Positions 5,567-57,121 of a DNA stretch of 64,000 nt are shown here, one piece after another (the first letter of the stretch is position 1; each line of letters begins with the position of its first letter). Made by a program: the position numbers and the translations under genes. The DNA is from Branchiostoma floridae (lineage: Eukaryota > Chordata > Leptocardii > Amphioxiformes > Branchiostomatidae). Under the pieces are notes generated by a model. It was not told the origin of the DNA, searched no databases, and saw only the letters and a list, made by a program, of their open reading frames with translations. The stretch lies in contig NC_049984.1 of assembly GCF_000003815.2 (NCBI RefSeq), forward strand, positions 16,536,684 to 16,600,683, read 5' to 3'.

Positions 5567-44600
<39,034 letters not shown>

Positions 44601-52923: not shown

Positions 52924-55900
52924 ATGGCTGAATCAGTGACGGTGGTAAAGATAGCGGCCATCTTGGTCACCTTTATCTTGACTATGATATTTGGGTTGGG
53001 GCCTGCTTGGTTCGTGTCTGGGAGGAAACAACGGTACAAACAACGAGGTAGGACGCCGGCCCTGCTCAGCTGCTTCGCCGGGGGAGTGTTTCTGGCCACC
53101 TGCCTCTTGGACTTGATTCCTGACGTCGAGGAGGAGCTGAACCTTGCCCTCGCGGGCTCACACCTCTCGTACCCGGGTTTCCCCCTCCCAATGCTCGTGG
53201 TGGCCATGGGCTTGTTCATGGTAGGGCTGGGTATCGGTACAGCGTACCGGTACAAAACCGGTTTTTCCTATTGGACCGGTCCAGAAAAACCGGACCTGAA
53301 AAAATTAGGTGGACCGGATGTTGGACCGGTTAGAAAATTAACAGATTATTTCATAAGGCATTTACGCGTTTTGGCGCTTGCAGGTGGAAGAAAATAACAA
53401 GAGTAAAGTAGAGTAGAGTTTATAGTAATTTCTACCAAGTTTTACAGCCAATCGTACAGGTGCAGTTAGCGTTGTAGGATTTTAAAACGCCAGTGGAAGT
53501 CTAGTACTCCACCAAACAGATTTCTTTGTAGTAAAATGGACTATTAGTATGAGTCATACTGAATCAGGTCCAGGTTCAGGTCCGGACCTGGACCTGATCT
53601 TTTGGACCTGAACCGGACCTGGACCTGAATTTTCTGTACCGGTACCCAGCCCTAGTTCATGGTTCTAACGGTGGAGCAGGTGGCCCTGAAGTACCACAGC
53701 AGGCCGCTACAGGCGCGGCACAACGGTACACACATCGCCCTGGAGACTCCCGTGTGCATAAACAACGAGGAAGAAGACGTGAACGTTATGGAGATGGGGG
53801 AAATGCACGGTGGAATACCCGACTCAGACCAGAGTGACGACCATGAACATTTGCATGCCAGGTAAGTGATGTAGCTACATAAACATTAAGCCGAAGTCTG
53901 AATATTCAAATTTAGTACAGTCAGTATATTAGAATATTGTTTACTTTGATTGTTTTCAGTAGAGCGATCAGTCGCAATAATGGTTCAATTTTAAATCGTT
54001 TCATCATTCTGTTTGATTTAGTTTGTAACAGCGGTGTTAATTGTAAAATAGTTTAAAATATTATGTATTTTTTTCATCTCAATCGACAACATTGTCTTTT
54101 GTACAACATATCTGCCCTGCAAAGAATATTTTGTCAACGACCCTTAAACAACCCGTTCGGCGTCATTTACCTACAGTTAATAAAGATAGTGACCATTTCA
54201 TAGGATTTTTAAGGCCCGTTCTTATGTCACAAACTTTTTTTTTTCATTTCCCGAATTCAGTCAACACATTTTCATCATAAATCCAGCAATAAGAAATTTG
54301 TAAGCATTGCAACTGAAATATGTTTTCTTTGGAGTACATTGATACCCATAGTAGCTGTTATGAGTTGTACGTATGCGTAGAAATGTTTACATCCGCCAAC
54401 AAATACGGCAACAGATCGTTGCGTTCTGTGTAGATTTGTTTACTTGAGATGACACTGCCAGATAGATCCAATAACAAGATTACAATGTTATATTGCCCCG
54501 CAATAGCCTGTGCCGGTAAAAACAATCATAGGATTATAACGTCAAATCTGGTAGTTGAAGGCATTACTATTTCTTGTTCTTTGCTTTTGTTAAATCGAGT
54601 TTTTACCCCGCATTTTCCAGCCTACGATCTTGGTCCCTACTCCTTGCCATTTCCCTACATTCCGTCTTTGAGGGCATCGCCGTTGGGCTACAGAAAGAGA
54701 CAGCCGGTAGGTAGCATGACGTCAGCACAGGCGATGACGTAGTAGTCCCAGTGGGTGATGGGAGATTTTAGTCACAGAACAAAGGAAACGATTACGATTA
54801 TAATTCACTCAGCCGCAAAATGAGCTGACCTAGTTCCCGGGGAAATTAACTGTTAAAATGTTCTGTATTTGCTAAGCCGTACATTAAGACCGGGTAACAT
54901 CTAGGGAATTTGATAATGTCTTAGAATTACGATTTTGACGTAAGCAATTAATGTGATTTACGTAAAGCGGATGTTCCAATACTTACGTATATTCCAACAC
55001 ATGTACAGGATTCTTATGTATCTAAAGCAGCAAAAAGTAGTAGGGTTTAGAAAGCACCTAGGAAAGTAGCCGAAATGCTATCGAAAAGTCTGCAGATAGA
55101 ATCTCATTGGTTGTGTAGATAAGAGCTGTTTGTGCATCTTTATTTACAAGCGTATGCCCGAACGAAAATTGCAACGGTTACGTATACAGTGATAAGTAGG
55201 CTTTGTGACTAGTATAGTAGAAATTAAGATTTTGTAGTTTTTTAGATGCTGAAATCTCGAGAAGATTGTGTTTCAAAATGCCTGTAGCCTGTGCCGGTAA
55301 ATGAATAATAAACAAAATGCCTGTTTCTTTCTGCTGTATAATGACGGCATTTACAGATTAAATGCATTTTATTTTCCATTGCACCAGGCCTATTGTACAA
55401 TAAACACATGGTTTTTATTCGAAATGGTAGCTTTTTATAACGTTCCTTTCTGTTGAATTATCCATCTGATGAAACTATTCCTGGTTCTTTCCTAGCCGTT
55501 TTACAGTTGATAACGGCAGTGGCACTGCACAAGTCTGTCATGGCCTTCAGCCTCGGGATGGCCCTGGTGCAAAGCACCATGGGAAGGACCACCATGGTAG
55601 GGCTCAGCATCTTCTTCGCCATCACGGCTCCGACAGGCATGGCCATTGGTGAGAACTGCGTTATTGTTTTTAATGTCTAGATTGACAAGGTACTCGTATG
55701 CACTGGCCCACTTCCATGCATCTGCAAAATGAGGTCCCAAACGTGGAGTTTAAATCTCGTGGTTCATGATTGCAGTTGGTTCTCTGATCTATTCGTTAAT
55801 CCAACTAGTTCTGTTGCAATCTCTGTGGACTCTTGTTAGTCCGGTCCAAGTCTGTTGCTGAGCTGTTTATTCCCCGAGATAATTTCATATGATTGGTAGA

Positions 55901-56500
55901 ATGTGCGATATTAGTGTTTTCTTTTACACAATCAGTAATATGCCTCACTTGTTTACGTTTCGATGCCTATCGGTCTCAGACATCTTTCTCAGAGTACTAG
56001 TAAGTAGCGATGTAGAGGTACGCTTTTGTGGCGTGACTAAGTTTATATCCCCCCTCACAAAAGCGCCACCTACATTGGCTACTTATAGCGGCAAGAAGCA
56101 GCATACTACATGTAGTTAGAACTTAGGAAGGTATCTGAAAGGCATCGAAACGTAAGAAGGTGAGACTTGACTGATTTTGTAACGGTCGTTTCTTTTGATA
56201 TGGTCTGTCACAGGGATGGTGGTCGAGTCCAGCTCTCAGACGACTCACAGCCACGGCGTAAGCGGGGTGCTGACGGGGCTGGCCACCGGCACCTTTCTGT
56301 ACGTAACGTTCCTGGAGGTTCTAGCGCACGAACTCAAGTCCAACAGGGACAGGCTTCTCAAACTGGGCGCCATTTTTCTCGGCTTCTTCACGGTGGTGGG
56401 ACTGATGTTTCTGGACGCAGACATGAAGGAAAACCGGCATTTCTGCCCGGAACAGTTTCATAACTTGACTTCGACAGGCGAACTGGTGCAGACTCCTTAA
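52924..56500 (+). CDS. ZIP-family metal transporter (SLC39A1/2/3-like), five exons, exon 1 split by a MITE
   Basis: Coding pieces: 52924-53220, then 53656-53861 after a MITE, 54621-54706, 55496-55648 and 56214-56500 (TAA). All joints are in phase and the total is about 342 residues, against 310-325 in human ZIP1/ZIP3. Predicted membrane segments: TM1 near VVKIAAILVTFILTMIFGLG, TM2 near CFAGGVFLATCLLDLIP, TM3 near LVVAMGLFMV, a short His-containing cytoplasmic loop (SDDHEHLH), TM4 with the transport motif HSVFEGIAVGLQ, TM5 with HKSVMAFSLG, and three C-terminal segments (FLYVTFLEVL is in TM7). These His and Glu residues bind zinc in the family, so plasma-membrane zinc (or iron/manganese) uptake is expected. 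The start codon is in AAGATGG context. Function depends on whether the MITE is spliced out. Confidence 0.9.
53222..53654. mobile_element. hAT-type MITE (433 bp) inserted in ZIP exon 1
   Basis: The terminal inverted repeats are TAGGGCTGGGTATCGGTACAG at the left and, on the reverse strand, TAGGGCTGGGTACCGGTACAG at the right (20 of 21 match). An 8-bp target duplication GTTCATGG flanks it at 53214-53221 and 53655-53662. Eight-base duplications and TAGGG/CAGGG ends are hAT features. It carries no transposase. If read through, the insert adds about 57 codons and then a stop at 53395-53397. Removing the element and one duplication gives an uninterrupted ZIP reading frame (MGLFMVLTVEQ). An older copy is at 9112-9555. 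Confidence 0.93.
55935..56165. mobile_element. Foldback MITE, same family, in last intron of the ZIP gene
   Basis: The left arm CCTCACTTGTTTACGTTTCG, ATGCCTATCGGTCTCAGACA is inverted with the right arm GTATCTGAAAGGCATCGAAA, CGTAAGAAGGTGAG. The core AAAAGCGCCACCTACATTGG matches the copy at 11.7 kb. It ends about 50 bp before exon 56214. Confidence 0.68.
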
Positions 56501-57121
56501 TAGGGATGACAATGACTTTCTCACTGAGTGAAATTTGTAGGAACAAATCCGACAACTAATCAGGCACAAAGTGGGCTTCCGCTTTCAAGCCACTTCTTAG
56601 CAGGACAACAAAAGACTTTATAGTGTTACAACGAAATTGTAAGAACGTAGTGTCAAAATGAAACATTCATTAAAGGTGTCCTTGTGTCTGCAACATACCA
56701 ATGGACAGAAGAACGGTTATTCATAGTATTTATTGTACAAGGTTCAAGGCCTGATGCCAATAGCTTGCGTCACTTTTATTAGATACATATATTCATCTAG
56801 GTTTAAATGTTCCGTGCAATATATTTGATTCACTTTGGTAACAAAGTAGAATTTGCACACGTAAAAGAATTTATCAGACGTAAAATCCATCGGAAATCTT
56901 GTTTAGATAGGTAATATTTATATTATAATTGTAAAGATTCTACGCTATATTCACACACAATGTTAAACGCTCATCAACACTCTTTTGACCAGTCCTCTGA
57001 TCCTTCTCAAGTTGAAATGACCCGAATGCACTGTCAGGTGACCATGACGGAACTGTGACGTCAGAAACGGGTCACCCGGCGTTTAAAGCCTTTACAATAT
57101 CAAGTATTGTCACATGTAGAC
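56501..57121 (+). other. ZIP 3' UTR region
   Basis: Non-coding sequence after the TAA. ATTAAA at 56668-56673 (CATTCATTAAAGG) is a possible polyadenylation signal. No further exons. Confidence 0.4.

Follow-up and report, generated by a model that had tools for sequence, protein, structure and literature searches.

The ZIP gene and the element in its first coding exon

The stretch of DNA analysed here (the window, 64 kb, C6:16536684-16600683) belongs to a Branchiostoma floridae genome of 513 Mb in 431 contigs and carries a gene which, judged by its sequence, is that of a ZIP (SLC39-like) transporter, with the Pfam Zip domain extending over the whole protein. When an inserted element in the first exon is left out, the gene consists of four coding exons (Table 1), and the inferred exon joins yield a protein of 340 aa with no internal stops. 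This protein matches the Pfam Zip profile with 209.9 bits against a cut-off of 35.1, from position 3 to 322 of the 323 in the profile, and a phmmer search against solved structures gave no match at E 0.01. Apart from the element, no lesion was seen in the reading frame, the four exons, the splice sites or the ZIP domain. The end of exon 1 given in the preliminary description has been corrected to 53861.

The preliminary description had reported a 433-bp element with terminal inverted repeats (TIRs) matching at 20 of 21 positions and a perfect 8-bp target-site duplication (TSD), all of which was confirmed. The two 21-bp TIR arms lie at 53222-53242 and 53634-53654. The element interrupts codon 100 behind its first base, a place which we, like the preliminary description, assign to TM3 by the general layout of the ZIP family; Met99 ends at 53220, and codon 100 begins with the G at 53221, which is native to ZIP. 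Without the insertion, the site would read GGCTTGTTCATGGTTCTAACG. An assembly artefact is unlikely, as the TSD and TIRs are typical of the MITE family to which the element belongs.

Table 1. Positions in the window of the ZIP coding exons, the inserted element, its possible splice signals and a distant relative of the element
Feature	Position	Strand	Remarks
Degenerate older relative of the ZIP-exon MITE	9127..9547	+	68% across 419 aligned columns and 96% in a further piece of 28 nt
ZIP coding exon 1, 5' part	52924..53220	+	codons 1-99, to Met99; ORF and Pfam Zip PF02535
Left target-site duplication	53214..53221	+	GTTCATGG; last G forms potential donor ATG/GTAGGG
Potential GT-AG intron (predicted)	53221..53655	+	donor 6.5 bits, acceptor -0.9 bits (vertebrate-like matrix)
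hAT-type MITE, 433 bp	53222..53654	+	TIR TAGGGCTGGGTATCGGTACAG; member of a family with at least 555 stringent copies
Rival CAG acceptor within the 3' TIR	53647..53649	+	6.2 bits (vertebrate-like matrix); 6 nt upstream of TAG
Right target-site duplication	53655..53662	+	GTTCATGG; perfect 8-bp copy of the left one
ZIP coding exon 1, 3' part	53663..53861	+	up to donor CAG/GTAAGT at 53862
ZIP coding exon 2	54621..54706	+	HSVFEG motif; borders predicted from frame and splice sites
ZIP coding exon 3	55496..55648	+	contains ATGGTAGGGCT; borders predicted from frame and splice sites
ZIP coding exon 4, including the stop	56214..56501	+	acceptor predicted

Comparison of the exon-1 protein with the genome returned 10 matches, two of which are the halves of the interrupted exon itself (98-99% identity), and the remaining eight are divergent (29-45% identity). 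Among these 10 matches, the assembly yielded neither a second copy of this ZIP gene nor an alternative allele. Six of the eight divergent matches cross residues 99-100 in one uninterrupted frame, the other two (on C16 and C15) stop short of the insertion site, and the single paralog that was inspected (L089) aligns through the site without a gap. The empty site is thus the ancestral state, and an ancestral intron at this position was rejected on the same grounds.

The element family and the age of the insertion

The element belongs, by its sequence features, to a hAT-type MITE family, as the preliminary description had proposed. This assignment is based on the 8-bp TSD, the short TIRs, a target resembling nTnnnnAn, which is the preference of the Ac group, and the nature of the family, whose members are short, non-coding and present in many copies. 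For hAT elements in general, TSDs of 8 bp and TIRs of 10-25 bp are described (PMC3942097). A hAT transposase mobilising the family would be expected to come from an element with the same TIRs, ending in TAGGGCTGGG. An initial search yielded 2928 candidate places, the best 40 of which were scored and, apart from the ZIP copy itself, showed 94-98% identity. With a stringent pattern demanding both TIRs, the 513-Mb genome gave 555 copies, as against none with the reversed control pattern, by which a chance repeat was rejected.

Target sites were read from 30 copies taken without selection for flanks; these head the list of copies and lie without exception on contig C1. The TSD is a perfect 8 bp in 26 of the 30 and matches at 7 or more of 8 positions in 29, the one exception reaching 3/8. 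The TSD logo is GTnnnnAC (G1 17/29, T2 21/29, A7 19/29, C8 16/29), in which T2 and A7 correspond to the nTnnnnAn preference. Two of these 30 copies, L060 and L061 (C1:15957482 and C1:15961140), lie 3.7 kb apart with the common TSD GAGTCAGA, and are probably, from this shared target, products of a local duplication rather than of two insertions.

Copies flanked by G...G on either strand number 136 beside the 555 stringent ones, roughly a quarter, the two patterns not being strictly nested. A family-wide excess of G...G as a sign of selection for introns was considered and rejected, since this proportion agrees with the 7 of 30 flank-unselected TSDs that have G...G or C...C. The examined part of these 136 amounts to 51, among them the ZIP copy. 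The wider comparison began with 88 loci and retained 79 distinct copies after removal of eight duplicates and of L002, which was not located because its right end did not fit the pattern. These 79 comprise 51 copies with G...G or C...C (50 fetched for their flanks, and the ZIP copy) and 28 without, and 78 of them have a TSD matching at 7 or more of 8 positions.

The window itself holds a degenerate older relative of the element, overlain by a long open frame at 9121-9777 that looks accidental. Additionally, repeated peptide-like units occur in several frames at 13924-14182 and 21361-22170, representing a tandem or dispersed repeat.

Relative to the 79-copy consensus, to which flank-selected copies contribute the larger share, the ZIP copy differs at 13 of 433 sites and ranks 35th of 79, at the median divergence of 3.0%. 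Its nearest sibling among the best 40 of the 2928 places is L002, which differs from it at 10 of 424 sites and shares most of its differences from the consensus. Of these ten differences, six can be assigned to L002 and three to the ZIP copy, while one, where all three states differ, is undecided. Since other copies share the state of the ZIP copy at two of its three sites and at the undecided one, its own branch carries between one and four changes, corresponding to 0.2-0.9% (95% limits 0.01-2.4%). A closer sibling, which may exist among the copies outside the scored set, would lower this figure.

For lancelet haplotypes, a heterozygosity of 3.2-4.2% has been published (PMC12500494). Resequencing sets exist for 41 B. 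floridae samples (PMC12373286) and for a family of 106 members (PMC12500494). At mean coalescence, 1.6-2.1% would be expected per lineage, or 6.9-9.1 changes in 433 bp, and the chance of four or fewer is then P 0.05-0.18. By this count of changes the insertion probably, though not with certainty, postdates the split that typically separates two alleles, so that the natural expectation is a probably still polymorphic insertion; it could instead be fixed, four or fewer changes not being clearly below the coalescent expectation. Maintenance of the frame by selection after the insertion is an uninformative criterion, since the insertion is too young, and for the same reason the absence of other lesions in ZIP is uninformative.

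At none of the 78 other distinct copies was a host coding exon recognisable in a survey by site-spanning ORFs and Pfam. From the 25 longest ORFs spanning the insertion sites, 20 were submitted to Pfam, leaving out the two ZIP frames, two frames of L087 masked by N and that of L038. Two matches exceeded the cut-off, in L071 (Fes1) and L028 (RRM_1), but in neither does the domain span the insertion, to one side of which it lies, and we read the insertion sites as intronic in both. In the second batch of ten, two ORFs produced three matches between them, none of which reached the Pfam cut-offs. L087, which adjoins masked N, and L038 were not counted as host exons; the latter (C4:14019287-14019722) lies inside a long retrotransposon reverse-transcriptase frame (RVT_1, 66.6 bits). 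With an assumed coding fraction of 5-10%, neutrality would predict 4-8 exonic copies, and the probability of seeing none is 0.02-0.0003. Exonic copies thus seem, on a weak showing given that detection without annotation is imperfect, to have been removed, which speaks against routine harmless splicing.

Splice signals and predicted products

The last base of the left TSD and the first of the right one complete a GT and an AG at the two edges of the element. The arithmetic of the preliminary description holds: any 8-bp TSD beginning and ending in G around TA...TA ends yields GT...AG, and splicing there leaves six additional nucleotides in every case. The strength of these sites was estimated with a simple matrix of approximate vertebrate-like frequencies rather than lancelet values. 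On this vertebrate-like scale, the donor at 53221 scores 6.5 bits, third among the 67 GTs in 52924-53869 and close to the weakest of ZIP's own donors (12.6, 7.9 and 7.1 bits). It had been called a good donor; the GT is indeed present, but the site is fair rather than strong. The same holds in a more pronounced way for the proposed acceptor CCCTAG ending at 53655, whose AG exists but scores -0.9 bits on the vertebrate-like matrix, 19th of the 50 AGs in 53230-53869, as compared with 9.8, 9.2 and 7.0 bits for the three inferred ZIP acceptors. ZIP intron 2 apparently also ends in a TAG.

A better CAG lies upstream of the weak TAG, within the 3' TIR sequence CCCAGCCCTA. When both ends of 78 copies were compared, on either strand, 154 of the 156 had kept this CAG at its TIR position, and the competition therefore concerns the family at large. 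Among G-preceded copies, mostly fetched for G...G, the stretch joined at the CAG contains a stop in 70 of 162 phase cases and that joined at the TAG in 36 of 153. In other reading phases, the TIR CAG would by sequence give an open intron adding 12 nt and needing only a terminal G of the TSD on the coding strand. The general rule offered in the preliminary description, that any hAT element with TA...TA ends landing on G(N6)G would form an intron, does not follow, because the dinucleotides alone are insufficient when the TAG scores -0.9 bits and a CAG of 6.2 bits competes on the vertebrate-like matrix.

The predicted products differ sharply in their consequences. Left unspliced, the frame would stop after 157 aa, the last 57 being foreign residues from TM3 on, in agreement with the roughly 57 foreign codons expected earlier. 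Removal of 53221-53655 keeps the frame open, as previously calculated, and would give a protein of 342 aa reading MGLFM-FM-VLTVEQ, in which six additional nucleotides place Phe-Met within TM3. These two extra residues leave the domain recognised, since Pfam Zip still scores 202.5 bits as against 209.9 for the whole protein and 66.6 as against 73.3 for exon 1. Use of the CAG at 53649 is likewise in frame but reads ATG CCC TAG, giving MGLFMP-stop at 100 aa; the stop is built with the same G that completes the TAG acceptor. Joining the donor at 53221 to the AG at 53679 would keep the frame open with VLTVEQ dropped, through an acceptor of 0.8 bits on the vertebrate-like matrix.

In the predicted RNA fold, the TIRs pair and place the donor and the acceptor at the foot of the stem. 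The fold energy is -180.8 kcal/mol (z -6.9), a stability reached by none of 100 shuffles. According to this model, the pairing may either hide the splice sites or bring them together. The 11-mer of the donor context, ATGGTAGGGCT, recurs at 55594-55604 in coding exon 3, in frame with ZIP, against a chance expectation of 0.01 matches in the window. This is probably a coincidence, and the exon-3 occurrence shows no sign of acting as a donor in the Pfam Zip search of the whole ZIP protein, where the domain match is intact. Taken together, the sequence argues against efficient and correct splicing of the element.

A probably disruptive insertion or a possible intron at birth

The reading that we consider probable is that of a recent, probably polymorphic and mainly loss-of-function MITE insertion, with correct splicing leaky at best. 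A non-autonomous hAT-type element would have inserted recently by cut-and-paste and duplicated GTTCATGG in exon 1 of a ZIP gene for which the assembly offers no close second copy; on this view, the sequenced haplotype carries an allele that is young and probably still polymorphic. Transcripts left unspliced would end after the foreign residues. Should the donor be used, the stronger CAG ought to prevail over the TAG and lead to an immediate stop, and the in-frame Phe-Met product would be at most minor and leaky. The element itself, its family and TSD, its youth as compared with its siblings, a reading frame undamaged elsewhere and the sequences of the splice sites are shown; polymorphism, splice choice and loss of function are the parts of this reading that we infer. 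Counting against it, a donor close to ZIP's weakest and the TAG of intron 2 leave splicing possible.

The strongest rival is a functional new intron, in which the TSD and TIR bases supply the GT and AG, the element is removed, and a working ZIP protein two residues longer is made. The canonical borders, the open 342-aa product with its full Pfam Zip match, a fair donor ranking third of 67 and the otherwise intact gene all favour it; pairing of the TIRs could, by the fold model, draw donor and acceptor close to each other, and Ds/Ds1 and the Introners offer a precedent. Nevertheless, we regard it as unlikely. The TAG acceptor ranks 19th of 50 with a better, stop-producing CAG 6 nt before it, a stable predicted stem has both splice sites at its base, the two residues are added in TM3 where the paralog aligns without a gap, and the donor 11-mer is also coding sequence in exon 3. 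A damaging, possibly variable insertion is more likely than a working new intron.

An insertion fixed in a decaying ZIP gene that is becoming a pseudogene in B. floridae appears improbable: an empty copy was not found in the assembly, and related functions could reside in the eight divergent ZIP matches at other loci, but the insertion is young, and all four exons are intact together with their splice sites and the ZIP domain. Least probable is a neutral bypass of the element that is not an intron, by alternative start or exon use (a downstream promoter, or the acceptor at 53679, which keeps the frame open from the donor at 53221), as the protein would lack TM1-3 altogether or a portion of TM3, and the acceptor scores 0.8 bits.

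The principle of transposon-made introns is already known. Maize Ds and Ds1 are reportedly spliced from exons, going by the titles of Dennis 1988, Wessler 1991 and Giroux 1994, which speak of a Ds1 that 'acts as an intron' and of Ds in the 'de novo synthesis of an intron'. Ds1 is about 400 bp long with an 8-bp TSD. As in the ZIP gene, a non-autonomous hAT element lies in a coding exon; in maize it reportedly acts there as an intron, with splicing found, by title, in the message, whereas the ZIP case is a possibility read from sequence, and the TIR sequence and the host are unrelated to those of the lancelet MITE.

Introners are described by Gozashti et al. 2022 (PMC9860276) as DNA-transposon-like elements whose splice sites come from the element and the TSD, some cases adding codons (12 bp in Aureococcus); within animals, this systematic survey places them in two groups only. 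The ZIP MITE resembles them in having TIRs and a TSD, with a canonical GT...AG at the junction of element and TSD and the frame kept at the cost of 6 nt. However, Introner families, as portrayed there, sit in many genes as introns, whereas the lancelet family looks like a general MITE. Closer to the present host, intron gain has been reported in amphioxus PRHOXNB, with the MITE LanceletTn-2 in the intron (PMC5802833); lancelet, MITE and reported gain are shared with our case, and the gene is another. In a review (PMC3443670), transposon insertion is given as a route of intron gain with the target AGGT, and Table 1 has 35 such events in Oryza, Drosophila, Oikopleura and Zea. There, too, the target duplication provides splice-site bases, and Oikopleura is also a chordate; the splice in that scheme is length-neutral, unlike the six nucleotides added by the ZIP MITE. 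No report of this MITE family as introns was found in the literature searched.

A bolder proposition is that a hAT MITE with TA...TA ends is a live source of introns in this lancelet, adding 12 nt in frame through the CAG or 6 nt through the TAG wherever the TSD ends in G on the coding strand, and that the ZIP allele is a segregating intron polymorphism caught at birth; we hold this to be doubtful. Proof of a hAT intron still polymorphic in a lancelet would, if true, be of real interest. With a rival CAG present in its own TIR, the ZIP insertion, even if disruptive, would offer a clear and inexpensive way to test whether a transposon bordered by GT and AG is thereby spliced. If it were proven at population frequency in lancelet, the birth of an intron could be watched as it happens.
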